Origin: Streptomyces sp. NBC_00344
GTDB taxonomy: Bacteria; Actinomycetota; Actinomycetes; Streptomycetales; Streptomycetaceae
Direction of reading: 5' to 3'
Assembly (NCBI RefSeq): GCF_036088315.1
Contig: NZ_CP107996.1
Location: 1,426,001-1,490,000 of the forward strand
DNA length: 64,000 bases
In this document: piece by piece, positions 14,191 through 35,946 of the stretch
How the letters are laid out: the number at the start of each line of letters is the position of its first letter
Numbering within the stretch: the first letter of the stretch is position 1
Translations under genes and position numbers: made by a program
The notes under the pieces: model-generated
What the model was told of the DNA's origin: nothing
The model's database searches: none
What the model saw: the letters and a program-made list of their open reading frames with translations, nothing else

Positions 14191-14216
14191 TGATCGCTTG
14201 GCGTAGCGCCTAGGGA

Positions 14217-14257
14217 GGGGTCTGTCCGCGACACTTGAGTGCCGTGGACAGACCCCC
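14217..14257. terminator. Hairpin terminator between convergent genes
   Basis: The 11-base arms GGGGTCTGTCC (14217-14227) and GGACAGACCCC (14246-14256) enclose an 18-base loop. The hairpin lies between the end of the methyltransferase gene and the end of the convergent DUF397 gene, so it may serve both. Confidence 0.65.
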
Positions 14258-14276
14258 TTGTTGGTCTAGGCACGTC

Positions 14277-14540
14277 CTACTGGTGCGCAGAGCTGACAAA
14301 TGAGGTCCAGGCGGTAGGGCTGATTGTCAGGCTGGGGCGGGCCGTGTCCTTCGAGTCACGCACGTGCACACCATGCGGACAGGCCGCCGTCTCGAAGCAC
14401 TCACCGCCCTCCTCACCACTGAAGCTTGACTTGCCCCACTCCAGGGCCACTTCAACGCATTGACCGCCGTCACCTGCGCTGTAGCTGCTCTTGAACCAGA
14501 CGAGCGCACCAATCGCGCGCCTCGACCGCTCCTCGTTCAT
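14277..14540 (-). CDS. DUF397 domain-containing protein
   Basis: An 87-residue protein with the DUF397 pattern, apparently in two partial copies: WFKSSYSAGDGGQCVEVA and then WGKSSFSGEEGGECFETA, followed by VHVRDSKD and a C-terminal AWTSFV. DUF397 proteins are small actinobacterial partners of Scr1-type XRE regulators and are thought to act with them in a toxin/antitoxin-like or developmental switch. The ATG overlaps the stop of the upstream XRE gene (ATGA), showing translational coupling. The duplicated motif is slightly unusual for this normally single-copy domain. Confidence 0.88.
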   Translation of the reverse strand: MNEERSRRAIGALVWFKSSYSAGDGGQCVEVALEWGKSSFSGEEGGECFETAACPHGVHVRDSKDTARPSLTISPTAWTSFVSSAHQ

Positions 14541-15391: not shown

Positions 15392-15539
15392 GCCCGGCAT
15401 CACCTCCACCCGCCAACGCCGCTCGGCGTCGACCGTCACGCTCCGTACCGCCTACAAGCGCAGACCGGTCGCGTACAGCCACCGGCCGTAAGCGCACCGT
15501 CTCTTTCAACCGTAGATCGGCGGCGGAAGCGTGTACCCC

Positions 15540-15989
15540 ATGCACAGCGAAACTTCGCCCGCACCAGCGCCAGTTGGAACCCACGAGTTCTCGATGCGCT
15601 TCACCTCCTCATCACGTGGGGCCCGCCTCGCCCGGCGGCTGGTCTCCCACCGGCTGGACACCTGGGGCCACCCCTACGCGTCCGCCGCGAACGAGACCTT
15701 GACGCTGATCGCCGCCGAGCTCACCGGCAACGCCGTGCGCCACGGCCATGTCGCCGGCCGGGACTTCCACCTCCGTTTGACCGAGAGCGCCGACATCCTC
15801 CGCGTCGAGGTCACCGACACCCGCACCGAGCGCGTACCCCTGCTGTCCCGCGACGTGCCGCCCGGTGACGCGGAGTCGGGGCGTGGGCTGCTCGTCGTGG
15901 CCGGGCTCGCGAGCCGTTGGGCGGTCTTGCCGCGCACCGACGCGCCCGGCAAGACCGTATGGGCCGAGCTGTGCGTTTCCCGCCATTGA
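15540..15989 (+). CDS. Anti-sigma-like ATP-binding protein (HATPase, RsbW/SpoIIAB type)
   Basis: A 149-residue GHKL-fold protein. The N box is ELTGNAVRHG (about residues 58-67), the G1 box is the DTRTERVPL region, and the G2 box is GRGLLVVAGL (about 115-124). Single-domain proteins of this type in Streptomyces are kinases or anti-sigma factors, and they commonly sit divergent to an XRE/DUF397 pair, exactly as here. The ATG at 15540 is preferred over the GTG nine bases earlier because GGAAG then has usable spacing. The target is unknown. Confidence 0.88.
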   Translation: MHSETSPAPAPVGTHEFSMRFTSSSRGARLARRLVSHRLDTWGHPYASAANETLTLIAAELTGNAVRHGHVAGRDFHLRLTESADILRVEVTDTRTERVPLLSRDVPPGDAESGRGLLVVAGLASRWAVLPRTDAPGKTVWAELCVSRH

Positions 15990-16089
15990 CCAGCCGGTTT
16001 CGGATACTCACGGGGGCTTCGCACCACGCTCCCGATAGCCTTGCCGGTCCGTGTGTCCGCCGCACGGGGAGCCAAGGGGGACATCGAAC

Positions 16090-16497
16090 GTGAGCACCAT
16101 CCACGCGGGGCCGGCGGGCTACCGCGTCTCCATCGTTGACGAGGACCCACTGCGCGCCCGGCGCGAAGCGCGCGAGTTGCTCGCCGCGATCGTCGACATC
16201 GATCCGCATGCCTCCGTCGATGTCCCCTGGCCGCAGGCCCCGGCCACCGACGGCAGCCTCAAGGGCGGACCCGTCACCGACCTGATCGGGCTGGTGTTCG
16301 GCGGCGGTTCCATGGTCGCCGCAGCCGTTCAGATCTGGCTGGCCCGCGTGCCGCAGCGGACCATCGTCGTCACCCGGCCCGACGGGGCGACGTTGCGTAT
16401 CTCCGGCAAGGAGGCACGGGCCGACGACGAGCGGATCGAGCGGTTTCTCTCCGAAAGCTCGCAGGACCGCCAGGGGGACGGACCGGCTCCGGAGTGA
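16090..16497 (+). CDS. EACC1-like effector-associated constant component
   Basis: A 135-residue protein with a variable N-terminal half, a small hydrophobic segment around GLVFGGGSMVAAAVQIWLAR, and a C-terminal beta-strand part (TIVVTRPDGATLRISGKEA). This is the pattern described for the 'effector-associated constant component' EACC1, which accompanies caspase-like, trypsin-like and other effectors in predicted actinobacterial conflict systems. The GTG start follows a short intergenic region after the ATPase gene. Its last bases overlap the GTG of the caspase-helicase gene (GTGA), so the two are coupled and almost certainly function together. Whether EACC1 acts as a sensor, adaptor or inhibitor is not known. 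Identification is by context and pattern only. Confidence 0.72.
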   Translation: MSTIHAGPAGYRVSIVDEDPLRARREARELLAAIVDIDPHASVDVPWPQAPATDGSLKGGPVTDLIGLVFGGGSMVAAAVQIWLARVPQRTIVVTRPDGATLRISGKEARADDERIERFLSESSQDRQGDGPAPE

Positions 16498-19400
16498 GTG
16501 ACAACGACCGGTACGCCATGCTCATCGGCGTATCCACGTACGACAGCGACGGCTACCACGATCTGCCGCCTGTCAAGGCCGACCTGCACTACATGCGGGC
16601 GGTGCTGGAGAGCACCGAAATCGGTATGTACAACGACTGCGCGATGGTTGCCGAGCCGACCCGCGCCGAGATGCTGCACGCGATCGAGACGTTCCTGGAG
16701 GAACGGCAGCCCATCGAGACCGCGCTGCTCTACTTCAGTGGCCACGGGGAGTTCTGCGAGGCGGACGGCCAGTTGTACTTCCTCACCCGCGACGCCGATC
16801 CGGACGACCTGCCGGGAACTGCGGTGCCCGCCGAGTTCCTGGAGCGGATGCTCCAATCCTGCCGGGCGTCCTCGAAGGTGGTGCTGCTGGACTGCTGCTC
16901 CAGCGGCTCGGTCGTACAGGGGTGGACCTCCAAGGGTGCGGCCGACTCGGATGCCCGGCCCGCGCCCAGCACTCTGTTGCATCCGACCGGCGTGTACTTC
17001 ATCACCGCATCCGACGCCCTCCAGGCCGCTTCGGCGATGGCCCCGGCCGGGTCCTCGCTCGGCACCTCCCGGTTCACCGGTGAGATCGTGGAGGGTCTGC
17101 GCTCGGGGCGCATCAAGGACAGCGGCTGGATCACGCCGGACGACCTCTTCGAGTACCTGACCGCGCAGATGGTGCGTGCCGGCGTGCCGCAGGAACAGCG
17201 GCCGACCAAGTCCACGATCCGGGCGACGAATACGCTTCCCCTCGCACGCTCCGTGGCACGGTCGGTGAACCTTCCCGCCCTGCCCGGCGGCGGTAGCGCC
17301 CGAGCCGACCAGAACTCCTCCCCCGCGCTGCTCAAGGCACGGGAACTGGCCGGGCTCGACGCCCGGGACGGCGTCGACCGGCAACGGCTGCTGCGTTACT
17401 ACGTGCACTGCCTGAGCGCGCAGGCCGCGTCGGGCATGCTTCCCGACCGGGACAGCGGGCGAGGATCCGCGTACTTCCTGCTGGGGCAGGGCTCCGAGAC
17501 GATCCAGTCCGGGCTCGGCCCCTCCCTTCCCGCTCCTTCCCAACTACCGAGGCCGAAGAGCACAGGAGCGAGGTCGGCCGATGGTGCCGGGCTCCAGGAG
17601 TACTGGTACGGGTATCCGGCGATCACCCTCCCCGAGCGCGGTGGGGACGGCCGACGCCGGGCTGCGGTGCAGATCGCGCCGTTGCTGATCCAGTCGATGG
17701 AGCTCGCCCCCGACGAGGACGGCCGTGACAAGCTCCGCCCGAACGGGGTCCCCTCGCTTCACACCAAGCTGATCACGGACCTGCTGGACGACGACGAAGC
17801 CGCCGAGCTCCTCGCCCGCTGGCAGCCGACGTGGCAGGAGGGCAACGGCACGCAGATGGTGCGGGCCGTGCGGGAACTCCTGACGGAACTCAGCATTCCG
17901 GAACTGGAGCCGCTTGACCTGTCGGCGCTCAGCGAGCGGTCCGTGATGGACTCGCTGCGGCCCGGCGCCCACAACGCTGCGGTTCTCCTCGCGCCCTCGG
18001 GTGTGGAACGGATCGCGACCGAGGCCCTCATGGACAACCTGCTCCAGATGTCGACCCGTACTGCGCAGAATTCCGGCACCTCGCTGGACGCGCTCCTGAC
18101 GGGCGGTAATGGAGCAGACATGAGCCGCGAAGCTCCCTGCATCGTCGCCCCGGGGCCGTGCAACGAGAGCCAGGAGTTGGTGATCCGGTCGGCGATGACA
18201 CGCCCTCTGACCGTCGCGACCGGGCCGCCTGGTACCGGCAAGAGCGAGGTCGTGACGGCCGTGGTCGCGACCGCCGTCGCCGCCGGTCAGACCGTGCTGG
18301 TCGCGTCCACGAACAACGACGCCGTGGACGTGGTGGCCGAGCGCTGTGACGCGATCTCGCCCGGGCTGCTCATGCGGACGGGTAACGCGGCGGCGTTGGA
18401 GCGCGAGGCCGCGAAACTGGAAGGGCTGCTCAGCCTGCCCATCGAGACCCCCGGGCGCGGGGCGGCGACCGTGGCCGGTGACTTGCGCAACCGGCATGCG
18501 CGATCGGCCACCCATCGGGCAGAAGCGGCGCGGCTGGTGGGCGAGGAGACGCACCTGGTGGAGCTGCTGCGGCAGCGTGCCCGGCAGGCCGACGATCTTC
18601 AGCTGGCTGTCGAACTGGTGGAAGGGGTCTGGTCCGGCAGTGAGACCGACGCGCTCTCCCGTTGGGAGGAGCAGGCCCGGAGGGCCGCCGCCGCCCGATG
18701 GTTCGCCTTCGGGCGATGGCGCCGAGGGCGGGCTCTCTCGGCGTTGGTCGCCGCGTCCGGTACGGCTCCGGCCGACCCGTGGCCGCCTTGGGCCTCGGCT
18801 CGGCCGGTGCCGCCCGAGCTCCTGCTCGCCCTTGCAGAGGCCGTGGCGGTGGAGCGTGCAGTGCGAGAACTCGTGCCGCGGGTCCTCGGCCAGGACGAGG
18901 AGGGGCTGAAGCGGGCCCGGCTGGAGACGGCCGCCGGACTGTCGGAAGTGTCGGGTGAACTGGCCCGGGCGGTGGCGGCGGAGGCCATGACCCGAGGACG
19001 CTCGCTCATGGGCCAGCGGCTCCAGGCGCTGCGCCGACGGTCGGGCTTCCAGAAGAGCCAGCGCAACCTGATGGCGCACCTCAAGGCGTGGGCCATCAGC
19101 ACGCATTCGGTGCGCCAGCTGGAACTCGCTCCGAAGCTTTTCGACTTGGTAGTGATCGACGAGGCGAGCCAGTGCTCGATCCCGGCGGTCCTTCCCCTGC
19201 TGTTCCGGGCCGAGCGGGCACTGATCATCGGTGATCCCATGCAGCTCGGACACATCCCCGGCATCACGGCACAGCAGGAACGGCAGGCGCGGGAACGGGC
19301 CGGTCTCAGCGCGGCACAGCTGGAGGACCACCGGCTCGCCTACCACGTGTACGCGTCGTACCACGCGGCTGCGCAGCACGGCGAGTCGGCGCTGCTGCTC

Positions 19401-20369
19401 GACGAGCACTACCGCTGCCATCCGGCGATCGCGGACATCGTCAACGGATACTGCTACGCAGGGCAGTTGCAGGTTCTCACCGACGTCCGCAGGCAGGTTC
19501 CGGCTTCTGATCCGTTCGGCAAGGCCGATCCGGCGCCGGTGCTTGGCTGGGTGGACGTGCCGCACGGCGAGTCGGCGCGGGGTGGCAGCGGTCAGTCATG
19601 GCGCAACGCGGCGGAGGCGGGGCGGGTGCGGGAGACGGTGGACGAGCTGCTGCTACGGCTACCGAAGGACGCGACGGTCGGTGTGGTCACACCGTTCCGG
19701 GCCCAGAAGGAGGCGCTCGCCCGCGTCTGGGCGGACGGCGAGCGGGTCAGGGTGGGCACCGTGCACGCCTTCCAGGGCGGGCAGCGCGACGTCATGGTCC
19801 TGAGCCCGGTGGCGACCAGCAATACCCCACCTCGTACGACGCATTGGGTGGCGAGCCAGGCCAACCTGTGGAACGTGGCCGTCACCCGGGCGAAGTCCCA
19901 GCTGATCACCGTCGGCAGTCACGCGTTCTGGCAGGAACAGGCGGGGTTGCCCGCGTTGCTCGCGGAGCGGTCGGCGGTGCTGCGCACGGACGCGTACGCC
20001 GACCAGGACAGCGCTGTCAGGCCGGAAACGGTCTCCGGCGTCCGCGAAGAGCTCGCCGACCGGCTCCAGGAGTACCTGGGGGTACGCGGGATCACCGATC
20101 TTGAGCGCGCCGCGCTCGTCGGCGGACACACGGTGGATCTGCTGTTCACGGCGGACGGCACGAACACCGCGGTGCTGATCGATCCCGGTCCCCGCAACGA
20201 CCAGGATCCAGCCCGGCACCTGCGGCTGACGCACGCGCGCGGCGACCTGCTCACCGGCCTGCCGTCCGGCGGCGCCGGGGCGAAGACCGGGCCGGTGACC
20301 CGGACGATCCGGGTCCCGGCGTGGCGGATCCTGGCCGGCGAGTCAGTGCTGGAGCCGCTGTTCACCTGA
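16494..20369 (+). CDS. Caspase-like protease fused to an Upf1-type helicase
   Basis: A 1291-residue fusion. The N terminus is a C14-type caspase domain: strand YAMLIGVSTY, catalytic His in YFSGHGE (H84) and catalytic Cys in LLDCCSSGS (C135). A middle region (about 270-560) resembles the N-terminal part of large bacterial SF1 helicases. The C-terminal Upf1/Dna2-type SF1 helicase has Walker A GPPGTGKSE (about 576), VIDEASQCSIPAV (about 887), IIGDPMQLGHIPG, DEHYRCHPAI and TVHAFQGGQRD (about 1089) with VAVTRAK. Caspase-NTPase fusions with EACC1 belong to predicted NTP-dependent immune systems in which nucleic-acid sensing triggers proteolysis and cell death. Both catalytic residues are intact. 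The gene overlaps EACC1 at its start. The last 110 residues may be a degenerate nuclease fold. Confidence 0.85.
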   Translation: MSDNDRYAMLIGVSTYDSDGYHDLPPVKADLHYMRAVLESTEIGMYNDCAMVAEPTRAEMLHAIETFLEERQPIETALLYFSGHGEFCEADGQLYFLTRDADPDDLPGTAVPAEFLERMLQSCRASSKVVLLDCCSSGSVVQGWTSKGAADSDARPAPSTLLHPTGVYFITASDALQAASAMAPAGSSLGTSRFTGEIVEGLRSGRIKDSGWITPDDLFEYLTAQMVRAGVPQEQRPTKSTIRATNTLPLARSVARSVNLPALPGGGSARADQNSSPALLKARELAGLDARDGVDRQRLLRYYVHCLSAQAASGMLPDRDSGRGSAYFLLGQGSETIQSGLGPSLPAPSQLPRPKSTGARSADGAGLQEYWYGYPAITLPERGGDGRRRAAVQIAPLLIQSMELAPDEDGRDKLRPNGVPSLHTKLITDLLDDDEAAELLARWQPTWQEGNGTQMVRAVRELLTELSIPELEPLDLSALSERSVMDSLRPGAHNAAVLLAPSGVERIATEALMDNLLQMSTRTAQNSGTSLDALLTGGNGADMSREAPCIVAPGPCNESQELVIRSAMTRPLTVATGPPGTGKSEVVTAVVATAVAAGQTVLVASTNNDAVDVVAERCDAISPGLLMRTGNAAALEREAAKLEGLLSLPIETPGRGAATVAGDLRNRHARSATHRAEAARLVGEETHLVELLRQRARQADDLQLAVELVEGVWSGSETDALSRWEEQARRAAAARWFAFGRWRRGRALSALVAASGTAPADPWPPWASARPVPPELLLALAEAVAVERAVRELVPRVLGQDEEGLKRARLETAAGLSEVSGELARAVAAEAMTRGRSLMGQRLQALRRRSGFQKSQRNLMAHLKAWAISTHSVRQLELAPKLFDLVVIDEASQCSIPAVLPLLFRAERALIIGDPMQLGHIPGITAQQERQARERAGLSAAQLEDHRLAYHVYASYHAAAQHGESALLLDEHYRCHPAIADIVNGYCYAGQLQVLTDVRRQVPASDPFGKADPAPVLGWVDVPHGESARGGSGQSWRNAAEAGRVRETVDELLLRLPKDATVGVVTPFRAQKEALARVWADGERVRVGTVHAFQGGQRDVMVLSPVATSNTPPRTTHWVASQANLWNVAVTRAKSQLITVGSHAFWQEQAGLPALLAERSAVLRTDAYADQDSAVRPETVSGVREELADRLQEYLGVRGITDLERAALVGGHTVDLLFTADGTNTAVLIDPGPRNDQDPARHLRLTHARGDLLTGLPSGGAGAKTGPVTRTIRVPAWRILAGESVLEPLFT

Positions 20370-20405
20370 CGCATCGGGCAGGCGAACAGCGGCAGAGGTG
20401 CGCGG

Positions 20406-21452
20406 TCACGCCCGCAAGGTCCGCACGACGTAGGTCATGTGCTGGATGTTGCCGACACGGAGCCAGACGGAGGCATTGCCGGTGCCCGCCGGACCGTGCC
20501 CGCGCGCGCAGTCCCGCAGCCAGCTCTCCCCCGCACCGGCCACCGTGCCCCGGAAGTCCGGCAGTTCAAGCAGCTACCGGGCCGCGTCCCGGTTGACGGC
20601 GGTCCGATCCTCGCCCCGTGCCAGTACTTTGGCAAGGACGAACGACTCGGCGGTGGTGTAACGAAGCACGCCCCAGGCGGGGCCGCCCCCGCCCGCCGAC
20701 GGTTCGCGTGCGATAGCCCGGGCGGGCTGGATACCGTAGTCGCCGAAGCTGAGCCACGGGATGTAGCCGCGAGCGGCGGCGGTCAGCTCACGCCAGGCGC
20801 GCCAGTCCGTGCGAGGTTCGGCGCGCAGTCCCTCCTCCAGCATCTGCGCGGTCACGGACGGGAACCCACCGCCCAGAAAGGCGGCGGTCCGCCAGGGTGT
20901 CAGGGGCATCAGAGCGTCGAGCGCGCGCAGTGCCTCCTTTCCGGCAGCGGGACGATCGCCCAGCACCGCACCCAGGTCGAGGAGCAGATCCGCCTCGTCG
21001 GCGGGATCCAGGCGGTCGAGCAGCGCGCGAACAGCATGGGCGGCGTGGTCGTCCCACTCCCCCGGGAGTGCGACACGTATACCGACGCCACTCCCACAGC
21101 GCCGCGCTACCTCCAGCGCGGCGGCCTGCTGGAACTCGGGGCGGCCGGGCCCGGTGATCGGACGCAGTGCGCTCAACTCACAGAGGTCGGCCAGCACCGA
21201 CATGAAGGCCCTCAGTTGGAGCTCTCCGGCGAACGGGGTGTCGATCCAGGCCGGATGATGATGCTGCACCCGGCTCACAGCATGCGCCTCCCGCCGCGTG
21301 TGTGCGACGAGTACGTCGAGGGCCGCCCCATGACGTGGCGGAAGATTCCAGAGCGGCACCACCGCTCCCTGAACGGCCGGACTCAACTGCTGGTATGCCG
21401 CGGTTGCGTGCGGCGACGCCGGCAGGACGGGAACGTACAGCGGTCCGGACAT
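20406..21452 (-). pseudogene. Beta family protein gene with one in-frame TAG
   Basis: The reading frame from the ATG at 21452, with GGGGGAG six bases upstream, looks like an actinobacterial 'beta family protein' (related to phage T4 beta protein). Seen are YVPVLPASPHATAAYQQL near the start, PLWNLPPR, GWDDH-type acidic stretches and YIPWLSFGDYGI. It is interrupted by TAG at 20574-20576. The same frame carries on after the stop for 55 codons (LLELPDFRGTVAGAGESWL, and later NIQHMTYVVRT) to a TGA at 20406-20408, restoring the family's usual length of about 350. A single CAG-to-TAG change would explain it. The truncated 292-residue product may still be made, so loss of function is likely but not certain. 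In other genomes these proteins sit beside defence genes; their activity is unknown. Confidence 0.75.
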
Positions 21453-21722
21453 GACGGCTCCCCCTTGGCTCTGCCCGTGCCCTATTTCCCTCTTCTCTTC
21501 AGGGTCTGCCCCCTCGCCATTTCACGGAATGACGCCTTTTCGGCCCGGGTGGCTGGAACGCGCAAGAACCTGGTAGCTCTGTGATCAGGGAGGTACTGTT
21601 CGTGGTGCTCGGCAGCCGAACCTTTCGCGTCACACACGCGTATGACGGTGCATCCGCCGTGGCTGACTCCTGTCGAACCGGCCGAGCTGTGCCCGGCTGC
21701 TCCCTGATTGGGCACGAGGCGC

Positions 21723-22955
21723 GTGAACCACCGCATACTCGGACTGACGGTCCGGAACTTCCGCACCCTGACGGACGTGAAACTGCCCCTGGGTCCGCTG
21801 ACAGTGATGGTGGGGCCCAACGCTGCAGGCAAGTCGAACGTCCTGCATGCCTTGAAGTTCTTGGGAGACATCGGTCGACAGGGGATCGAGGCCGCGGTCG
21901 ATGATCGAGGTGGTTTCGACGTCCTGGCCTTCCGCGGAGGCCGTAAGCCGGTATCGCGTATCTCGGTCAGCCTTGAGGGCATCTGGTCGGACTTCGCGTC
22001 ATCGAAGAGCCCTGACCGCTATGCGCTGAGCGTCTCTCGGCGCCGGCTGCCGGACGCCTCCCGCCAGCGGTTCACGATGTACCGGCGAGAGCTGTTCACA
22101 CAGCACTCGGTGGAAAGCGCTGTGACCGCCGTCGAGCTGTCCGGCGACCGCATGACAGTCGCCGGTCCGCTGGAGAGCGAGACCGATGCGCCTCACCCCG
22201 CTGTCGGGCGCATGGCGTCGGCGCTTCATAAGGCAGCGCCGCTTCCCTCGGACAGCCCCCCGGCCACGAGCATGAACGAGGTAGCACGGCACCTCAAGCA
22301 GATCCGGGTCTTCGACCCGAATGTGCGCGCCGCGCGGGAGCCCTCTGCGATCACTGATGAAGGGCGCCATCTGAAGGACGACGCCTCCAACCTGGCTGAT
22401 TTCCTCAAGACCTTGCGTGACCTCAAGGACAAGGAAAAGGACGGTCGCAGGGTCATCTGGGAGGCATTGCTGGACGACGTCAGGACGGTTGTTCCCCAGA
22501 TCCACGACATTCATTTGGTGGACGTCCCGGGGATGGCTGGCTACCTCTCGGTAGAGCTGGAAGAGGAGAGCCTGCGAGGACGCACCCGCCTACAGGACGC
22601 CTCCTTCGGCACCGTGCGTCTTATTTGCCTCCTGGCTATCTTCCACGATCCGAACCCTCCTCTGTTGACCTGCATCGAGGAGATTGACCACGGGATCCAC
22701 CCGCACGCTCTGGAACTCCTCGCCGGGAGGTTGCGCGAGGCAAGCCGACGGGGACAGTTCCTGGTCACCACCCACTCACCCGCCTTCGTCGATGAGCTAG
22801 AACCGGACGAGTTCGTCGTCTGTGAACGCGGCCGGGACGGCGCATCAGTCATTCCCGCCCTCACTACGGATGAGGTGCGTGAACGCATCGAAGCATCCGA
22901 AGGTATGCCCATCGGCGAACTGTGGTTCGCCAACACCCTGGGGGGCGGCCTGTGA
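21723..22955 (+). CDS. AAA family ATPase (OLD/RloA/AAA_21-like)
   Basis: A 410-residue SMC/ABC-like ATPase. Walker A is GPNAAGKSNV (about residues 32-41) after the usual LTVRNFRTL opening strand. The signature-like DASFGTVRLICLL lies in the C-terminal half, followed by Walker B LLTCIEEIDHGIHP and the H-loop LVTTHSPAFVD. The GTG at 21723 has GAGG upstream. Its stop overlaps the start of the next gene (GTGA). Stand-alone ATPases of this family pair with a TOPRIM or DUF4276-type partner in overcoming-lysogenisation, RloAB, Gabija-like and PARIS-like defence systems. It is divergent from the broken beta gene across a 270-base region. Confidence 0.87.
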   Translation: MNHRILGLTVRNFRTLTDVKLPLGPLTVMVGPNAAGKSNVLHALKFLGDIGRQGIEAAVDDRGGFDVLAFRGGRKPVSRISVSLEGIWSDFASSKSPDRYALSVSRRRLPDASRQRFTMYRRELFTQHSVESAVTAVELSGDRMTVAGPLESETDAPHPAVGRMASALHKAAPLPSDSPPATSMNEVARHLKQIRVFDPNVRAAREPSAITDEGRHLKDDASNLADFLKTLRDLKDKEKDGRRVIWEALLDDVRTVVPQIHDIHLVDVPGMAGYLSVELEEESLRGRTRLQDASFGTVRLICLLAIFHDPNPPLLTCIEEIDHGIHPHALELLAGRLREASRRGQFLVTTHSPAFVDELEPDEFVVCERGRDGASVIPALTTDEVRERIEASEGMPIGELWFANTLGGGL

Positions 22956-23587
22956 GCTCCAAAGCAAGGCCGAGCAAGGGAAAGGGCAATCGTCCGGTCA
23001 TAGTTGTAGCGGGTGAGAGCGATTACGACAGGCAGGTACTCCGCCACCTCATCCAATCTGTGCACCCCAAAACGAGAATTGCGAATATTAGGAAGAAGGT
23101 CGTACTCACCGAAGCCGACAAACACTTGAGACCGCGCGTGGATGAGATTCGCCGACTGGCAGATACGGCTGCTGTCGGTTCGGAGCTGACCGGAATCGTG
23201 GTCCACGTCGATCTGGACGCCGTGGACGACGCGCGATATACCAAAGTCCGGGAACGCATCGCTTCCGAGCTCAGCAACACGTTCCCCTGCCCCTCCGCTC
23301 TCGCCTTGGCTGCCTTTGAGACCGAGGCATGGCTCATGCAGTTCCCCCGAGCGTTCTCGAAATTCGACTCCGGATGGACCCTGCACAACAAATACCGAGG
23401 TTGCGATCTCACCAAAGTGGATGACCCCAAGCGAAGACTCACGGAGCACGGGTGGAAGACTTCATATCTGGTGTCACACGCACCGAAGATCATGGAGAAC
23501 GCCTTCGAGGAGGACGGCACACTCATGAAGCCGGACGGAAAGAACCGCTCGTTCCAGGAATTCATGGACGAACTGTCCGCCTGGTAG
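22952..23587 (+). CDS. TOPRIM/DUF4276-like partner of the AAA ATPase
   Basis: A 211-residue protein translated from a GTG overlapping the ATPase stop. After a basic leader it has VIVVAGESDYDRQVL, with an acidic residue placed as in the first TOPRIM motif, then VVHVDLDAVDD as a DxD-like second motif, and FETEAWLMQFP. Small proteins of this shape beside AAA_21-type ATPases are assigned to DUF4276, RloB or DUF4435. In PARIS the equivalent partner is a toxic nuclease released by the ATPase on phage sensing. I cannot choose between these families without a profile search. Codon use is clearly less GC-rich than in the neighbours, which fits recent acquisition. Confidence 0.62.
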   Translation: MSSKARPSKGKGNRPVIVVAGESDYDRQVLRHLIQSVHPKTRIANIRKKVVLTEADKHLRPRVDEIRRLADTAAVGSELTGIVVHVDLDAVDDARYTKVRERIASELSNTFPCPSALALAAFETEAWLMQFPRAFSKFDSGWTLHNKYRGCDLTKVDDPKRRLTEHGWKTSYLVSHAPKIMENAFEEDGTLMKPDGKNRSFQEFMDELSAW

Positions 23588-23684
23588 CCGAGGCCCGGAC
23601 TCCACCTGCTGCGGCGATGTCGCATCACAGCGCATATACGGTGGTCCTGATCACCAGGGCAAAGGCAAGACAAAGGGGACCGTC

Positions 23685-26600
23685 GTGAAGCCCACCATGG
23701 CCGCCGCCCAGTTGCGCGGCAGTCTGACGCAGTACCTCACGACGACGTACGCCCTCGCCGACGAGGACACCCGGCGGGCGCTGGAACGCTTCCTCGACCA
23801 CCCCGAGACAGGCATCTTCCGGGGCCCCTACCTCCGGATCAGAACCCCGTTCCACCGCGCCGACGACGGCTGGCAGCGGGACCTGGAGTGGACGGGCGGC
23901 TTCCCCGGCTTCACCCCCCACCGGCACCAGGCCAAGGCATGGAGTCGGCTGTCCACCCTGCGTGGTCCCGCACAGCCGACGCTGGTGACGACTGGAACAG
24001 GCTCCGGCAAGACCGAGTCCTTCCTCATCCCCATTCTCGACCACTGCCGACGGCAGCAGGCCCAGGGCAACCGCGGCATCAAGGCCGTTCTGCTCTACCC
24101 GATGAACGCACTCGCCACCGACCAGGCGGGGCGCATCGCCGAGTACCTGAGCCGGCCCGAACTGGCGCAGGTGACCGCCGGCCTCTACATCGGCGACCGG
24201 CCGGACACCGACTTCCGCCGGGTCATGACGCGACGTGAGGAAATGCGCCTCACGCCGCCCGACGTGCTGATCACTAACTACAAGATGCTCGACCTGCTCC
24301 TCCAGCGCGGCGAGGACCGCCCGTTGTGGGAGAACGCCGACCTCACCTACGTCGTACTCGACGAGTTCCACACCTACGACGGTGCCCAGGGCACAGACGT
24401 GGCGATGCTGCTGCGCCGTCTGGCCGCCTCGACCGGGGCTTCGCGACCGGGGCGACCGCTCGGTTCGATCTGCCCGGTGGCGACGTCGGCGACCCTCGGA
24501 GAAGGCACGGCGGACAAGGAATCCGGCGGCATTCTTGATGTCGCCTCACGAGTCTTTGCGATGCAATTCTCCGCCGACGCCGTCATCGGTGAGGAGCGGA
24601 TGTCCGCGGAGGAGTTCACGGGCGCCGTCGACTACGAGCTGCCGGAGCCTCCCACGCCCCAGGAGGTCATCACCTTCTCCGGCGGTCCCGGTGTGGAAGC
24701 CCAGCCCGATCTGCTGGACCTGGACCGCCTGGCCGCCAGGATGCTGGGCCGATCCGGCCTAGACCCTTTCCGTCTCGGGCGCCTGCTCAAGCGGCACGAT
24801 TTCACTCTGGGTGTGCTGTCCCTCCTAGGCGGAGAACCTCTGGATGAGTGGGGTCTGCGGGACCGGCTGGCCCGGTTCGGATACGCCTGGGGCCGTACCG
24901 CGCGGGAGAACCCGCAACTCGTGCTACAGGCCCTCTCCCGGTTCGTCGCCCTGCTGTCGGCGGCACGCGACCCGGACTCCGACGAGCGCAGACCCCTCCC
25001 CCTCCTGCACATCGAAGCGCACCTGTGGGTCAGGCCCGTGACCCGCGTCCTACGCGGCGTGGGCCCTTCTCCTGAGTTCCGTTGGTACGAGGACGATCGC
25101 ACCGCCGCGCGCCGGGCTGCCCTAAACACCGCTCCGCTCGCCGACGAGGAGCCTGACGGGGTCTCCGGCGGCCGGTCATCGGCGCGCCGACCGCAGCCTC
25201 TTCCCGGCACGGACACAGCTGTCCGCCCGGCCGAGGTGCACCTGCCGGCGGTCTACTGCCGCAACTGCGGGCGCTCCGGATGGGCGTCCCTGTCCCCCGA
25301 GGCCGACCCCCAGCGGCTCGTCATGGCGCAGGACCGGATCTGGCGGGCAGCCGTGGGCCGGGACAAGCGGCGCATCCGCTACTTCATCTCGGCCACGCGG
25401 CGGGAGCGGCAGCAGGTGCTCGACGCCTTGACCGGCGCCCGCCCCTCGGACGGTGGCGTCGACCCCCTGTCGGTGGTGGTACTGGACGGCGGGCAGGGAA
25501 CGTACCGGCTGCCGGCCGCCGCGGACTCCGACGAGCTGATCGATGCCTGGTTTACGCTGGCGCTGCTCGACAAGAAAACCGCCGACCGGGCTGCTAAGGA
25601 CGACCGCTGCCCCGCCTGCCACACCGACAACAGCATCCGCTTCCTCGGTACGGCACAGGCGGCGCTGGCGTCGGCGACGGTCACGCAGCTGTTCACCGGC
25701 GGTGACATCGCGCTCGTTCCCGAAGAACGCAAGACGCTGCTCTTCAACGACTCCACCCAAGACGCGGCACACCGGGCCGGCTATGTCGCCAATGCCTCGT
25801 ACAAGTTCTCCCTGCGATCCCTTCTCGCCCACAATCTGGACGAGTCGGGGGCGCCGACAGCGCTCAACGACCTCATCGGCCATGTGCTGGAGTCCGTGGA
25901 CGACCCGGAGGCGCTGGCCGCCGTCGTGCCGCCCGATCTGCACGACGAACCAGGGGTCGACCGGCTCCTGTCGGGACGCGGCACCGGCGATGCCCGCACA
26001 TGGAAACTGATCGGCGAGCGCCTCGCTTTCGCCACCGTGATGGAGTTCGGGTTGCGCAGCAGAATGGGGCGCACCCTGGAGCTGACACGGACCGCCGCGG
26101 CCGAGGTCGTCGTGGACCAGCCGAGCCGGGTCACGGACGTCGCCCGGGACATCCACCTGTCCCTGCCAGGGCAGCTCCTGGTCACAGGAGGGCTCCCCAC
26201 ACCTGAACGGTACCTCGCCTACGTTCGCGGGCTCCTGGAGCGACTCAGGCTGCGTGGTGCGGTGCACCACCGCTGGCTCCACACCTGGATGAAGGAAGCG
26301 GGTACGAACCGGTATCTGATCTCCGGCCGCAGGCCCGATGGCATGCCCGCCTTCCCCAACGGTGTGGCTCCGCCACGTTTCCTGTTGGACGGTCAGAAGG
26401 ATCGGTCCGAGTTCGACGCCGTCACCGGGCGGCTCGGCTGGTACCAGGACTGGACGCGCCGGTGCCTGGGGCTGGATACGGCCGGGGCGACCGAGTGTCT
26501 ACGCAGGCTGCTTCCCGCCCTCGCCGACGAAAGAGTCCTCGCGGCACGGACAACGAGTGACCGGCAGACCCGGATCTACGGTCTGCAACCCGGGCACATC

Positions 26601-29600
26601 CAAGCGCAGTTGCTCGACGACTCCGTCGTCAACAAGGCGTTCGTCGGCTGCGAGGACTGCGGTTGGCAGCAGGTCATGGCGCCCGAACGCCGCACGCGCT
26701 GGTACGGACACCCCTGTCCGCGCTATAGGTGCAAGGGGATGCTGAAGGCCCCGCAACCCGGCATGCCGGGGAGCGGATCCAGCGTCTCCGGGTTCGGTTC
26801 GGCCGTGCGCGAGCGTGACTACACCGGCGACTATTACCGTCGGCTCTACCTGACCGGTGGCACGTTCCGGGTGGTCACGGCTGAGCACACCGGCATGCTC
26901 AGCAGGCCGGAGCGGGAACGCGTCGAGCGCGGGTTCAAGGCCGGCACCCACTACACCGACCCCAACGTGCTGTCGTGCACGCCGACGCTCGAACTCGGCA
27001 TCGACATCGGCGATCTGTCGGCTGTCCTGCTGGGCTCCCTGCCCGCCGGACCAGCCAACTACGTGCAGCGGGCCGGCCGGGCCGGCCGACGGACCGGTAA
27101 CGCGCTCGTGGTCGCCTTCGGCGGGCGCAAGGCCCGCGATCTCTACTACCTGGACGAGCCGCGCGAGATGATCGCCGGGACGATCCTGCCCCCGGGCTGC
27201 TACCTGTCCGCCGTCGAGATCCTGCGCCGGCAGTACACCGCTCGGCTGCTGGACCTCGCGGCCCGTGGCGCGCTGTTCACCTCCGACGGCGAGCGGCTCG
27301 CTCCCGTGCCCCGGTTGTCCTCGGCCCTGTTCGGCACCACAGGCTGGTGCCAGGACCTGGCGGACGCGGCGCAGACCCACGGCGCCGCGCTGGTCGAGGA
27401 GTTTCTCGGTCTGTTCCCGAACGGCAGCGGACCGGACGTCTCCGCCGATGCCGAAGTCTCCGAACATGCGGCCGGAGAGCTGAAGGCGTACGCCACCGAG
27501 GGAATCGTCAGGGCGTTCCAGGAAGCCGAGGAGGACTGGACGGGGCGGCGCGAGGAGCTCCGCCGAAGGATCGCGGCGATCGACGAGGCTGCCGGACTCC
27601 TGGTCAAGACGGACACCGTGCAGGACCGCGAGCGCCGGGAGCTGCTCGCCGAGCGGCGCGGCGCGGGGGACCTGCTCCGTGAACTGAGCCAGTCGAGCGC
27701 CCACGGCACCCTGGTGGAGCTGGGCCTGCTCCCGAACTACAGCCTCACCGACACCACGACCCAGCTGGAAGCGACGCTGTACTGGACGGAGACACCGGAC
27801 GACGAAGAGGGTGCGCGGGCGGGGAAGCCCGATGGGGAGGCGCCCGGCAAGGTGTACCGCAGCGAGACCCGCGACTACGAACGCTCCCGCAAACTGGCGC
27901 TGACGGAGCTCGCCCCCGGCAACAGCTTCTACGTGAACGGCTACCGTCACGTCGTCCGCGCACTCGACGTCGGTACCCCCGACCGCCGGGCCTGGTCGGT
28001 ATGGCGCCTCTGTCCATCATGCGGATACGCCCGCACGCACCAGAACGCGAAGAACGACACAAGTCCGTGCCCCCGTTGCGGCGGGCGGGAAATCGCCGAC
28101 GCGGGATGCGTGCAGTACGTGCTCCAGCCGAGGCGGGTCATCTCCCGTGACAAGCGCGACGATGCCCGGGTGCGGGACGATCGCGACGAGCGGGACCGGC
28201 GCCGCTACGCCGTGCTGACGACGGTCGACATCGACCCCGAACGCATCGCCCCCGGTTCCTGGCGGCACGAAACCGCCGTGTTCGGAGTGGACTTCACCCG
28301 CCAGGCGAAGATCCGGACGTTCAATCTGGGACTCGACCGCGAGGAGGGGAGCAGCACCGTACCGTTCGCCGGCGCGGACGTCCGACTCAATCCCTTCTAC
28401 GTCTGCACCAGTTGCGGAGGAGCGACGGCTGAGGGACACCCCGTGGTGGACGTCCCTCAGCACGCACTCACTGCGTCGGGAGCGACGAGCACCGCAGCAG
28501 CCGCCCACCACCTGCTGTGGTGTCCGCGTCGCCGGGTCAAGGGTGCATCCGCGGCCGGTGACGGAGGTCAGCCGAGCAACGGCCAGGACGTACCGCTGCT
28601 CCTCGCACACGAGTTGGGCACCGAGGCGGTGCGCGTCCTGCTGCCCGCCTCCGTGGCGCGGGCCAAGGAGCGGTTGGCGTCGTTCACCGCCGCGTTGTTC
28701 ACGGGAATCGCCGCGCAGTACGGCGGCGACCCGGACCACATCGACATCGCCGAGGCGACGATGCCCGACCACGCGGGGGCCGACGGCTCGGACTGGCCGC
28801 GACGATTCCTCGTCATCTACGACCGGCTCCCCGGAGGCACCGGCTATCTGCACCGGCTCGCGTCCGCGGCTGGCTTCCGGGACGTGCTTCTCAAGGCACG
28901 TGAGGTCATCGAGAGCTGCGCCTGCCGCGAGAAGGGGCTCGACGGCTGCCACCAGTGCTTGCTGCGGCGGGTCCCGGCCTCCGACTACGACAAGGTCAGC
29001 CGCAACGAGGTACGCCAGATGCTGGACGATCTGCTGGGCGGGGACGGGGAATGCTGGCGGACCTCACCCGTGGAGACGACACGTCACATTCCGCTGGAGC
29101 GACAGGCGGAGAGCGACCTTGAGATCATGTTCATCGACACGCTCCAGGACTGGGCCAAGCTCTCCGACTCCCAGGCAGCGGCCGATGCCTACACCACCTC
29201 GGCCGGAACCTACGCCCTGGACCTGCGGCTGACGGCGACCGACGGTTCGACGGTGAGCTGGCGTGTCTCGCAGCAGCGCGCCCTGGACGGCACCCGGCCC
29301 GACATACTCCTCGAACGCCTCGATGCGCCGGGCCCACGCGTTGCTGTGTACCTCGACGGCTTCTCGTACCACGCGACGCCCGAGCACAACCGCCTGGCCG
29401 ACGACGCCGCCAAGCGGACCGATCTACGCGGCGAAGGCACGCGGGTGTTCCAGTTGACGTACGACGACGTCAAGGAGTGGCGCGAGCGCGTGCGTGACAC
29501 CGGTTATACGGGGGGCAGCCCGGTTGATCCGGTCTGGGAACCGTACGGGACAGACGCGCGGAACCAGGCGCGCGACTACTACAGCCGGGTGGGCAACGGA

Positions 29601-30623
29601 CTGCCCGGCGAGCTGTCCGACGCGGTGTGGGTGAATCCTGCCCGACTCCTGCTCGCCTATCTGCGCTCACCCGACGCATCGCGCTGGCAGCACAGGGCCG
29701 AAGCCGCTGCCGCCGGGCTGTTCGGGACGGAGGGCGTCCGTGCCACTGTCCTCGGGGCCGATGGTGTCGGAGCGGGCATCCAACAGGCGCTTCGCGGTGC
29801 GACGGTCTCGGGATCTGCAGGGCCGATCCGGTTGATCCACGGACAGGATGCCTCCGGCTGCCGGCTGGTCCTGGTCGCGGACGGCAGGCGCACCCCACCG
29901 GTGTGGTCGGGGCTCGCGGTAGTGGACGACAGCGCGGCGGCACTGGCCGACATGCAGGCTCATCGACGCCGCTGGCGGGGCTGGCTGTACTGGAGCAACG
30001 TGCTGCAGTTCCTGGATCACGGCGGCGGTGACAGCGTGCAGCTCGCCAGCAGCCTCCTCGACGGCTTCACCGCCGAGGTACTCACCGTGACCGGCGGCGA
30101 GGGATGGCTGCTCTCCACCACGGTCAAAACTCCGGCCGCGGAGGCCCCACCGGCCCTCACCCCGACGACGGCCGCGGTGGAGGTCGGTGCCGTCCGCGAC
30201 GGTGACCAGGCCGCTACGCTGGCTCGCTCGCCTGTGGTGCCAGCGGCCGGAAAGGATCCGGCGTGGGACCAGGTGCTGAAATATCTCGATGAGGAGGAGA
30301 CCGGCCTCGTCGACCTCGCCCGGGCACTCGCCGACGCGGGCGTTCATGCCCCTCGGGACGGCTACGAGCTCGATGAGCGGGGCTGGCAGGCGGAGCTGGC
30401 TTGGCCCTCCGTACGAATCGGGGTGGTCCTGGCCCCCCGAACCAGCGGGACGGAACAGGTTCCGGAGCCCGACTACGAGTCCGTCGACCGGGACCGGGCG
30501 TTCACGGCAGCCGGCTGGGACGCCCGCCCGGCCGCGGACTGGGATGCCGACGAGCTGATCGCCCGGGTGACCGGCCGGAACCGGAACGACGACAGCACCG
30601 ACAACGGGGAGCACGGACGATGA
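23685..30623 (+). CDS. Giant DEAD-box helicase with DUF1998 and Vsr-like nuclease domain (DruE/MrfA-like)
   Basis: A 2312-residue protein. Residues 70-260 hold the N-terminal helicase lobe: TTGTGSGKTESFLIP (about 102-115), LLYPMNALATDQ and VVLDEFHTYDGAQG (about 223-236). The C-terminal lobe is at about 1095-1150: SCTPTLELGIDIGD, then YVQRAGRAGRRTGNALV. Cysteine pairs near 525, 642, 990-1015, 1445-1475 and 1575 suggest zinc sites. DUF1998 ends with CACREKGLDGCHQCLLRR (about 1747-1764). At about 1805-1926 comes RPDILLER, VAVYLDGFSYHA and RTDLRGEGTRVFQLTYDDV, matching Vsr/DUF559-type PD-(D/E)XK folds. The remaining 380 residues are unassigned. The motifs match YprA/MrfA and Druantia DruE more than DrmA. 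The gene starts at a GTG after AAAGGGGA, 97 bases past the TOPRIM gene, and overlaps the next gene by ATGA. DNA unwinding with cleavage of phage DNA is the likely role. Confidence 0.82.
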   Translation: MKPTMAAAQLRGSLTQYLTTTYALADEDTRRALERFLDHPETGIFRGPYLRIRTPFHRADDGWQRDLEWTGGFPGFTPHRHQAKAWSRLSTLRGPAQPTLVTTGTGSGKTESFLIPILDHCRRQQAQGNRGIKAVLLYPMNALATDQAGRIAEYLSRPELAQVTAGLYIGDRPDTDFRRVMTRREEMRLTPPDVLITNYKMLDLLLQRGEDRPLWENADLTYVVLDEFHTYDGAQGTDVAMLLRRLAASTGASRPGRPLGSICPVATSATLGEGTADKESGGILDVASRVFAMQFSADAVIGEERMSAEEFTGAVDYELPEPPTPQEVITFSGGPGVEAQPDLLDLDRLAARMLGRSGLDPFRLGRLLKRHDFTLGVLSLLGGEPLDEWGLRDRLARFGYAWGRTARENPQLVLQALSRFVALLSAARDPDSDERRPLPLLHIEAHLWVRPVTRVLRGVGPSPEFRWYEDDRTAARRAALNTAPLADEEPDGVSGGRSSARRPQPLPGTDTAVRPAEVHLPAVYCRNCGRSGWASLSPEADPQRLVMAQDRIWRAAVGRDKRRIRYFISATRRERQQVLDALTGARPSDGGVDPLSVVVLDGGQGTYRLPAAADSDELIDAWFTLALLDKKTADRAAKDDRCPACHTDNSIRFLGTAQAALASATVTQLFTGGDIALVPEERKTLLFNDSTQDAAHRAGYVANASYKFSLRSLLAHNLDESGAPTALNDLIGHVLESVDDPEALAAVVPPDLHDEPGVDRLLSGRGTGDARTWKLIGERLAFATVMEFGLRSRMGRTLELTRTAAAEVVVDQPSRVTDVARDIHLSLPGQLLVTGGLPTPERYLAYVRGLLERLRLRGAVHHRWLHTWMKEAGTNRYLISGRRPDGMPAFPNGVAPPRFLLDGQKDRSEFDAVTGRLGWYQDWTRRCLGLDTAGATECLRRLLPALADERVLAARTTSDRQTRIYGLQPGHIQAQLLDDSVVNKAFVGCEDCGWQQVMAPERRTRWYGHPCPRYRCKGMLKAPQPGMPGSGSSVSGFGSAVRERDYTGDYYRRLYLTGGTFRVVTAEHTGMLSRPERERVERGFKAGTHYTDPNVLSCTPTLELGIDIGDLSAVLLGSLPAGPANYVQRAGRAGRRTGNALVVAFGGRKARDLYYLDEPREMIAGTILPPGCYLSAVEILRRQYTARLLDLAARGALFTSDGERLAPVPRLSSALFGTTGWCQDLADAAQTHGAALVEEFLGLFPNGSGPDVSADAEVSEHAAGELKAYATEGIVRAFQEAEEDWTGRREELRRRIAAIDEAAGLLVKTDTVQDRERRELLAERRGAGDLLRELSQSSAHGTLVELGLLPNYSLTDTTTQLEATLYWTETPDDEEGARAGKPDGEAPGKVYRSETRDYERSRKLALTELAPGNSFYVNGYRHVVRALDVGTPDRRAWSVWRLCPSCGYARTHQNAKNDTSPCPRCGGREIADAGCVQYVLQPRRVISRDKRDDARVRDDRDERDRRRYAVLTTVDIDPERIAPGSWRHETAVFGVDFTRQAKIRTFNLGLDREEGSSTVPFAGADVRLNPFYVCTSCGGATAEGHPVVDVPQHALTASGATSTAAAAHHLLWCPRRRVKGASAAGDGGQPSNGQDVPLLLAHELGTEAVRVLLPASVARAKERLASFTAALFTGIAAQYGGDPDHIDIAEATMPDHAGADGSDWPRRFLVIYDRLPGGTGYLHRLASAAGFRDVLLKAREVIESCACREKGLDGCHQCLLRRVPASDYDKVSRNEVRQMLDDLLGGDGECWRTSPVETTRHIPLERQAESDLEIMFIDTLQDWAKLSDSQAAADAYTTSAGTYALDLRLTATDGSTVSWRVSQQRALDGTRPDILLERLDAPGPRVAVYLDGFSYHATPEHNRLADDAAKRTDLRGEGTRVFQLTYDDVKEWRERVRDTGYTGGSPVDPVWEPYGTDARNQARDYYSRVGNGLPGELSDAVWVNPARLLLAYLRSPDASRWQHRAEAAAAGLFGTEGVRATVLGADGVGAGIQQALRGATVSGSAGPIRLIHGQDASGCRLVLVADGRRTPPVWSGLAVVDDSAAALADMQAHRRRWRGWLYWSNVLQFLDHGGGDSVQLASSLLDGFTAEVLTVTGGEGWLLSTTVKTPAAEAPPALTPTTAAVEVGAVRDGDQAATLARSPVVPAAGKDPAWDQVLKYLDEEETGLVDLARALADAGVHAPRDGYELDERGWQAELAWPSVRIGVVLAPRTSGTEQVPEPDYESVDRDRAFTAAGWDARPAADWDADELIARVTGRNRNDDSTDNGEHGR

Positions 30624-32863
30624 ACACCTCGGGCGTGACACTGCGCTTGCTCGACAAGGCCGACAAGGAGATCCTCAAGCTCCCCCGCACGGTCAAGGGC
30701 GCCTTCTTCGACTTCCAACACAAGTTCAAGACGAACCCGCACACCACCGGCCTCAAGCTCCAGCATCTCAAAGGTGACACCAGGCTGTGGTCGGCGCGCG
30801 TCAGCGACGACTACCGCGCCCTGTTGATCAGGCTCGCCGACGACGACTGGCTGATCGTCTCCGTCAAGCACCGCAAGGACGTCTACGATCGGCTGTCCGC
30901 CGGCGTCAACCATGTCACCGGCGGCATCGAGTACGTCGATCTCGAGGTGGTCGAAGACAGCGTCCTGCGACGCCTTCCCGCCCCGCCCTCGGCCCCTGTC
31001 GTCGCACCCGAACCGGCCAAACCGCCGGAGCTCTTCGCGGACTGGTCCGACACCGAGCTGTCGGACCTCGGCGTCGCGGAACCGTTACTGCCGGTGATCC
31101 GGACTCTCACCACCGAGGACCAGCTGCTCGGACTGATCGAGTACGCCCCTCAGCTCACGGGCGAGGTGCTGCTCGCACTCTTCGACGGCAGGTCGTTCGA
31201 CGAGGTACTCGACCAGGTCACGACGCCCGTCGCCGCGGCCGAGCCGGTCGACCCGGCGGACTTCAAGGCCGCGGCCCAACGCCCGGCCACGGTGGTGACC
31301 ACCTCTGACGAAGACCTCCGGGAAGCGCTGGAGGGTGGCGACTTCGGCCGCTGGAAGGCCTTCCTTCACCCCACGCAGACCAAACTCGTCGAGCGACGCT
31401 ACTCGGGACCGGCACGGGTCGGGGGTGGCCCCGGCACGGGCAAGACTATCGTCGCCCTGCACCGGGTGCGCCATCTCGTTCGGCAGCTGCCGCCCGGTCG
31501 TGACAAGCCGGTCCTCCTGACCACGTACAACAAGAACCTCGCCGCGGATCTGCGCTCTCGCCTGCTGGAGTTGGGCGGCGAGGAGCTCGTGGCCAGGGTG
31601 GATGTGAGCCATGTCGACCAACTGGCACTGCGCACGGTACGCGAGGCCGAACCCGGCAGCGGCAAGCAGGCGATGGACGATAGTCAGGCCGTACGTGAGT
31701 GGCGCGCCCTGCTGGACGAGTTGGGCGAGGACACCTGGGACCCCGAGTTCCTGCACGATGAATGGACTCAGGTGATCCTGGGTCAGGCCGTCGCCACCCG
31801 CGCCGACTACTTCCGTGCCCGCCGTGCCGGGCGCGGCCGAAGCGTCACCCGCGGTGAGCGTGCCGAGATCTGGCAGCTCGCCGAGCGCTTCACCCAGCGA
31901 CTGGACCGTCTCGGACGTCAGACCTGGGACCAGGTCGCCGAGCGTGCCGCTCGGCTGGAAATGGGACGTGAGCACCGCATCCTCTCGATCGCACGTCAGC
32001 GGGAGGAGGCAGGAGGCCTCGCCAATGTCCATCTCCAGGACGGGTCAGCTGGCTGGCTGCGCTATCGCTACCGGCACATCATCGTGGACGAGGCGCAGGA
32101 CCTGCGCCCCGCCCATTGGAAGATGCTTCGCGCGATGGCGCCGCGTGAGGCCAACGACCTGTTCCTCGTCGGCGACACCCACCAGCGCATTTACAAGAAC
32201 CAAGTGACGCTGGGAAGCCTTGGGATCAATATTCGCGGGCGGTCGTCCAAGCTGAGCCTGAGCTACCGCACCACGCGCCAGATCCTGCGCTCCGCTCTCG
32301 ACGTTCTGGGTGAGACGGCATACGACGACCTCGATGGCAGCCAGGAGACACTGGCCGGTTACCGGTCCGTGCTCAGCGGAAAGCAGCCGGCGGGGCACTC
32401 ATTCGCGGACTGGGCCCAGGAGCGTGAAGGTATCGCTGCGCTCATCAAGGAATGGGACGACAACCCGGAGTTGAGCATCCCGCACGAACAGATCGCGATC
32501 TGTGTGCCGACAAACCAGATGGCTGCCGAGGTCGGCTACACACTCGGGCTGCAAGGCATTCGTCCGGTTGAGATCCGGGCCGACGGGCCCCACGGCGACG
32601 GCGGAGTGCACATCGGCACGATGTTCCGGTTCAAGGGGCTGGAGTACCAGCGAATGATCATCGGCGGCGTCACGGACGGTTTGGTTCCGCGGGATGCGGT
32701 CAACCTGTTGCGCACCAGTGATCCAGTGCGCTTCCGCCATGAGATGCAACGAGCCCGCTCCCTGCTGTTCGTCGCAGCCACACGGGCCCGGGACAGTGTG
32801 GACGTCTTCTGGCACGGCACGCCCAGTCCGTTCCTGGGGCCCTCACTGACGGGGAAGAGGTAG
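30620..32863 (+). CDS. RelE-like domain fused to UvrD-type SF1 helicase
   Basis: A 747-residue protein whose ATG overlaps the upstream stop (ATGA), so it is coupled to the giant helicase. Residues 5-95 have the RelE/ParE toxin-fold pattern: LKLPRTVKGAFFDFQHKF, GLKLQHLKGDTRLWSARV, DDYRALLIR and VSVKHRKDVYDRL. A linker of about 150 residues leads to a UvrD/Rep-like helicase with GGGPGTGKTIVALHR (about 268-282), HIIVDEAQDLRPAHW (about 486-500), LVGDTHQRIYK, LSYRTTRQI, TMFRFKGLEYQRMI and FVAATRARD. Such RelE-UvrD fusions recur in actinobacterial defence loci. Whether the RelE part retains mRNA cleavage activity or only binds nucleic acid is not known. Confidence 0.85.
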   Translation: MNTSGVTLRLLDKADKEILKLPRTVKGAFFDFQHKFKTNPHTTGLKLQHLKGDTRLWSARVSDDYRALLIRLADDDWLIVSVKHRKDVYDRLSAGVNHVTGGIEYVDLEVVEDSVLRRLPAPPSAPVVAPEPAKPPELFADWSDTELSDLGVAEPLLPVIRTLTTEDQLLGLIEYAPQLTGEVLLALFDGRSFDEVLDQVTTPVAAAEPVDPADFKAAAQRPATVVTTSDEDLREALEGGDFGRWKAFLHPTQTKLVERRYSGPARVGGGPGTGKTIVALHRVRHLVRQLPPGRDKPVLLTTYNKNLAADLRSRLLELGGEELVARVDVSHVDQLALRTVREAEPGSGKQAMDDSQAVREWRALLDELGEDTWDPEFLHDEWTQVILGQAVATRADYFRARRAGRGRSVTRGERAEIWQLAERFTQRLDRLGRQTWDQVAERAARLEMGREHRILSIARQREEAGGLANVHLQDGSAGWLRYRYRHIIVDEAQDLRPAHWKMLRAMAPREANDLFLVGDTHQRIYKNQVTLGSLGINIRGRSSKLSLSYRTTRQILRSALDVLGETAYDDLDGSQETLAGYRSVLSGKQPAGHSFADWAQEREGIAALIKEWDDNPELSIPHEQIAICVPTNQMAAEVGYTLGLQGIRPVEIRADGPHGDGGVHIGTMFRFKGLEYQRMIIGGVTDGLVPRDAVNLLRTSDPVRFRHEMQRARSLLFVAATRARDSVDVFWHGTPSPFLGPSLTGKR

Positions 32864-35806: not shown

Positions 35807-35946
35807 TAGTCGTCCCGGCCTCCCCGGCAGTGAGCACTCGCCACGCCAGTATGTCTGCGGTACCCACAAGTCTTCGCGGGATCAGGGGTCATCAGGCCAT
35901 CGGGTCGCGAAGATCCTGCACCCGCTGTTCGGAAGGGCATACGACG

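Follow-up and report, generated by a model that had tools for sequence, protein, structure and literature searches.

A Vsr-type helicase-nuclease candidate, an upstream kinase gene and a junction insert at a probable ARMADA type II locus of Streptomyces sp. NBC_00344

The locus and its assignment

The window analysed in this work is a stretch of 64,000 nucleotides from Streptomyces sp. NBC_00344, corresponding to positions 1426001-1490000 of contig 1 (NZ_CP107996.1) in a genome of 7.06 Mb. An original prediction, made from the sequence alone, described its gene at 23685..30623 as coding for a 2312-residue DUF1998 helicase with a C-terminal Vsr-like nuclease domain, and this description is borne out by an intact open reading frame (ORF), superfamily 2 (SF2) helicase motifs, an MZB domain and a PD-(D/E)XK domain. 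With high confidence we assign the protein, as ArmC, to an ARMADA type II anti-phage system (armA-armB-armC-armD), which would act by the mechanism proposed below. The four genes are:

6039..8975 (+), armA: BrxHII/DrmD-like Swi2/Snf2 helicase, 978 aa, with K156 and D256 (PADLOC, Pfam, comparison with the E. coli plasmid operon)
8989..14190 (+), armB: PglX/type IIG-like adenine methyltransferase, 1733 aa, with G656 and N1098 of NPPW (same evidence as armA)
23685..30623 (+), armC: YprA-type SF2 helicase with DUF1998 and a C-terminal Vsr-type nuclease domain, 2312 aa (ORF, Pfam, PADLOC, alignment, fold)
30620..32863 (+), armD: GajB/UvrD-like helicase, 747 aa, with a RelE/ParE-like N-terminus, K275 and D490 (PADLOC, comparison with the plasmid operon)

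ARMADA was described in a preprint by Bell et al. 2025 (PMC12458937, cited throughout for its main text), where type II comprises a BrxHII-like ArmA, a PglX-like ArmB, a YprA-like ArmC with Vsr and a GajB-like ArmD with a RelE-like N-terminus, and protects E. coli against 13 of 80 phages by a defence termed direct and non-abortive. The reference operon was an ARMADA II operon on an E. coli plasmid (L085), whose four proteins are 29-37% identical to those of the window and encoded in the same order. Although a 9.5-kb stretch with other genes parts armB from armC in the window, gene order and strand are retained; armC and armD overlap by ATGA. ArmA has DrmD/BrxH matches in PADLOC and 32% identity to its plasmid counterpart, ArmB is a PglX-like methyltransferase carrying the S-adenosylmethionine (SAM) and NPPW motifs that ARMADA II requires, and ArmD matches GajB (PADLOC, E 4e-22) and is 35% identical to the plasmid ArmD, N-terminus included, where the RelE/ParE match itself is weak (E 0.022, below the cut-off). 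The residues mutated in PMC12458937 occur in the plasmid operon at identical numbers, and all eight have counterparts in the window: K156 and D256 in ArmA, G656 and N1098 in ArmB, K109 and D226 in ArmC, K275 and D490 in ArmD.

The helicase half of ArmC

The size of ArmC agrees with that of its ten best homologues (2302-2324 aa), and Pfam detected DEAD, Helicase_C and MZB/DUF1998 in it. Its main elements are:

23991..24014 (+), Walker A TGTGSGKT, aa 103-110, with K109 (alignments, residue match)
24360..24371 (+), motif II DEFH, aa 226-229 (alignments, residue match)
28689..28961 (+), MZB/DUF1998 zinc-binding domain, aa 1669-1759 (Pfam, alignment)

The cysteines C1745, C1747, C1755 and C1758 of the last domain are invariant in all 79 homologues of the ArmC alignment, the most distant of which is the E. 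coli plasmid protein (29% identity). CxxC pairs at 525, 642, 989, 1443, 1462 and 1574 are compatible with the ARMADA II arrangement of a BrxA-like insertion after RecA1, a beta-barrel zinc module and a MarR-like RecA2 insertion. The 2023 version of PADLOC-DB, against which 14 window proteins were scanned (with the best 25 matches listed for long lists), labels ArmC as DruE, the best models being DruE3 (E 7e-86) and DruE1 (E 4e-83). The DruE/MrfA-type label of the original prediction is correct as far as the YprA family goes, but the exact home of the protein is ARMADA type II ArmC.

The Vsr-type domain and the C-terminal tail

C-terminal of MZB, Pfam gave only a weak restriction-like match (MTES_1575, E 0.05-0.2), and no phospholipase D (PLD) domain, the Druantia III trait, was found by Pfam at the ArmC C-terminus, where a Vsr-type fold is predicted instead. 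The features of this part are:

29061..29519 (+), Vsr/EDxHD-type PD-(D/E)XK nuclease domain, aa ~1793-1945 (alignment, fold, Foldseek)
29121..29123 (+), E1813, first acidic residue, in helix 1 (79/79)
29301..29303 (+), D1873 of RPD (79/79)
29355..29357 (+), D1891 of YLDG (D in 70/79, E in 9/79)
29370..29372 (+), H1896 (79/79)
29547..30134 (+), middle domain, aa ~1955-2150, confidently folded (fold prediction; inactive EEP-like in PMC12458937)
30240..30584 (+), degenerate Vsr-like domain, aa 2186-2300 (order of elements; weak hhalign match)

Predicted in isolation, the Vsr-type domain has a restriction-like core (predicted local distance difference test score, pLDDT, 84), and its top Foldseek match is the catalytic domain of I-Bth0305I. 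Comparison with Vsr and PD-(D/E)XK enzymes and conservation of the catalytic positions had both been put forward as checks on the segment around residues 1870-1926, and both came out in favour of a nuclease-type domain: E1813, D1873 and H1896 are among just seven invariant columns out of 153 in the 79 proteins, position 1891 is D or E, and the active-site residues are also invariant in all 121 proteins of a second set, selected by similarity. D1873 and H1896 correspond to D1748 and H1773 of the L085 protein. Unlike the Vsr/EDxHD endonucleases known as separate proteins (E. coli Vsr, 1vsr; I-Bth0305I, 3r3p), the ArmC domain is fused to a 1760-aa helicase and has no recognisable sequence identity to them.

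The last domain has its secondary elements ordered as in Vsr in the predicted fold, and it aligns weakly, although in a sensible register, with the first Vsr domain (hhalign P 0.0018, probability 14.8%). It lacks a histidine at the matching position and keeps a single invariant column out of 115 (W2240). Such a series agrees with the description of type II helicases as carrying an active Vsr followed by inactive EEP and Vsr domains (PMC12458937). The C-terminal Vsr is predicted to be active in both ARMADA I and II, and the published ARMADA II mutants leave this domain untouched (PMC12458937), so that the invariant residues listed here are not covered by them.

A Ser/Thr kinase gene upstream of armA

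Directly 5′ of armA, with its stop 66 bp ahead of it, lies a gene that we propose as a fifth component in actinomycetes:

4689..5972 (+), Ser/Thr protein kinase, 427 aa (Pfam Pkinase E 1.2e-42; 35/38 testable loci)

Its occurrence was followed in the comparison loci (80, and the E. coli plasmid L085), which were picked among the matches listed by their similarity to the window ArmC and are therefore a biased set. The armA start is visible in 47 loci, nine of which have insufficient upstream DNA, leaving 38 testable loci. A kinase gene stands just 5′ of armA on the same strand in 35, its stop lying between -54 and +393 bp from armA, and HRDLKxxN and DFG are present in 32 of these 35 kinases. 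The loci devoid of it belong to Arthrobacter (L083), Paeniglutamicibacter (L084) and the E. coli plasmid. In this sample the kinase is nearly always beside actinomycete ARMADA II, and it probably represents a further component that would gate the system. The word "kinase" is absent from the main text of PMC12458937, and no kinase-ARMADA association was met in literature searches or in the passages available of PMC12839542, although it could still be in print. In ten loci (L020, L022, L023, L024, L027, L028, L031, L067, L068 and L079) a further kinase gene, whose product is less closely related (31-36% identity), begins within ~150 bp after armD.

A similar neighbourhood is known from Pgl, or BREX type 2, in which PglW is a kinase and PglX a methyltransferase. 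There, too, a protein kinase gene is found beside a PglX-like methyltransferase gene in actinomycetes, but the window kinase is a small general Ser/Thr kinase.

An insert at the armB-armC junction

The interval between armB and armC is occupied by other genes:

14191..23684 (no strand assigned), 9.5-kb insert with seven genes (Pfam, PADLOC, clusters)
14537-15439 (-), XRE-DUF5753 regulator
15531-15989 (+), HATPase
16051-16497 (+), EACC1
16494-20369 (+), caspase-helicase, 1291 aa: EACC1-associated caspase domain fused to a superfamily 1 (SF1) helicase related to Mokosh MkoA/MkoC
probably 20574-21452 (-), gene of unassigned family, also kept in nine related loci; PADLOC matches it weakly to PD-Lambda-2_C (E 6e-6)
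21708-22955 (+), HEC-01A ATPase
22922-23587 (+), HEC-01B

Among the comparison loci, armA and armB are separated by at most 90 bp (31/31) and armC and armD by at most 101 bp (79/79). The armB-armC gap does not exceed 10 bp in 29 of 54 loci and measures 1.1-9.7 kb in the other 25. In the remaining 26 of the 80 loci, the flank is too short in eight and reaches at least 9 kb upstream in 18; in the latter, armB lies 10.7-22.3 kb from armC on the same contig and strand in 14 and on another contig in three, and in one it was not found at E 1e-60. Altogether, an insert of 1.1-22 kb is present in 39 of 68 placeable loci, and this is the sole junction opened in the sample. A quick tree built from ArmC homologues only needs five changes of the inserted state, four of them forced by well-supported branches, meaning that the state switched at least 4-5 times.

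Insert contents were surveyed in 46 intervals (45 loci and the window), some of them cut by the end of the flank. Recurrent clusters are XRE-DUF5753 (20), HATPase (15), NsnA/B/C-like (11/10/8), HEC-01A/B (10/9) and the caspase-helicase (7), where Nsn is another name for Menshen. Among individual representatives are a type ISP restriction-modification gene, a PLD-helicase, a DrmA, and CHAT and RHS proteins. Defence modules such as HEC-01, the Nsn/Menshen-like genes and the caspase-helicase are frequent among the inserts, and one defence-operon junction repeatedly acquires other defence genes. In one locus (L061, genome G015), armB and armC both appear interrupted.

Proposed mechanism and relation to known systems

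According to the mechanism we propose, ArmB would mark host DNA through adenine methylation, and methylation could then distinguish self from non-self. ArmA, a Swi2/Snf2 motor, and ArmC, a YprA-type SF2 helicase with a DUF1998 canopy, would engage phage DNA devoid of the mark. ArmC probably unwinds such DNA, and its tethered Vsr-type domain would nick or cut it through a metal-bound E/D/D/H site, a proposal made because of the analogy with DruE, which engages 3′-tailed DNA (PMC13192584), and the logic of restriction-modification. ArmD may assist, the degenerate last domain of ArmC probably binds DNA or partners, and the actinomycete kinase probably gates the system, and the armB-armC junction takes up other defence genes. 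Catalysis, including DNA cutting by the Vsr-type domain, and the roles of methylation and the kinase are what we infer; the sequence itself shows the identity and order of the genes, their intact motifs, the predicted fold of the nuclease domain, the linked kinase gene and the place of the insert.

The original prediction was right in regarding the protein as a helicase-nuclease fusion, but this architecture is not new, since the gene is armC, already described with a C-terminal Vsr in the 2025 preprint. The window resembles ARMADA II in the make-up of ArmC (helicase, DUF1998, C-terminal Vsr, then degenerate domains) and in the order of ArmA, ArmB and ArmD, and differs in the 9.5-kb insert and the kinase before armA, neither of which appears in the main text of PMC12458937. 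We add data on the conservation of the active site, the linkage of the kinase gene and the site of the insert; the kinase and the insert are relevant to the regulation of defence systems and to the ways in which they combine. Whether ARMADA II in actinomycetes consists of five genes and is gated by the kinase (kinase-ArmA-ArmB-ArmC-ArmD), in parallel with the kinase and PglX of Pgl/BREX-2, and also has a dedicated bay at armB-armC where entire defence modules (HEC-01, Nsn/Menshen-like, caspase-helicase and more) are exchanged, we consider evenly balanced; if so, one core system would bear interchangeable backup effectors.

ArmC had also been compared with class 1 DISARM (DrmD, DrmMI, DrmA, DrmB, DrmC). 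Like DISARM, the locus unites a DrmD-like protein (ArmA), a methyltransferase (ArmB), a helicase and DUF1998. The comparison stands in so far as one chain joins the functions of DrmA and DrmB, which in DISARM are separate genes, a trait not found here. It fails for the nuclease, which is no counterpart of DrmC by descent, DrmC being PLD-type (PMC12458937) and the domain fused in ArmC Vsr-type.

Alternative explanations

A Druantia III-type variant, in which a DruE-like protein carries a C-terminal Vsr in place of PLD, could be suggested by the PADLOC scores for DruE3 and DruE1, by the lack of any ARMADA model in these 2023 results and by the presence of a Vsr domain in some Druantia III-like helicases (PMC12458937). 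Type III DruE shares with ArmC the YprA-type helicase with DUF1998 and the concept of a helicase-nuclease effector, but has two PLD domains (PMC13192584, PMC13316683). We regard this origin as very improbable: the gene sits between armB and armD in a set equal, gene for gene, to the E. coli plasmid operon, and neither DruH (type III) nor DruA-D, DruMFG or another Druantia partner is among the matches listed for the 14 scanned proteins, a subset of the window ORFs. It is also unlikely, if less so, that the Vsr-type domain binds DNA but is dead as a catalyst, ArmC being only a helicase. Decay does occur within ArmC, as seen in the degenerate Vsr copy that forms its last domain. The corresponding domains of Druantia I and II are called inactive (PMC12458937), and nuclease activity is a prediction alone; yet the retention of E1813, D1873 and H1896 among seven invariant columns of 153 differs sharply from the one of 115 left in that last domain.

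A more serious contender, somewhat doubtful in our judgement, is that the kinase and the insert are the usual neighbours to be expected in a defence island, functionally unconnected to ARMADA. Inserts differ between close relatives, and their contents extend to an RHS protein and a toxin-type RNase domain. In PADLOC the kinase is closest to mad6 and PD-T4-6, which are general defence kinases; no kinase match lies near armA in the E. coli operon, and ten loci bear another kinase right after armD. Kinase and ArmC distances correlate closely (r 0.97, 20 loci), but shared descent alone could yield such a correlation. What argues for a functional connection is the constant position and orientation of the kinase gene in 35 of the 38 testable loci, against 17 kinase matches across 735 kb downstream of armC (ten of them the ones just after armD), and the insert in 25 of the 54 measured armB-armC junctions, against 0/31 at armA-armB and 0/79 at armC-armD.

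Beyond armD, a gene without relatives at E 1e-8 in the 80 loci and L085 codes for a CHAT-domain protein of 974 aa, located at 32945-35869 (-) and convergent with armD.
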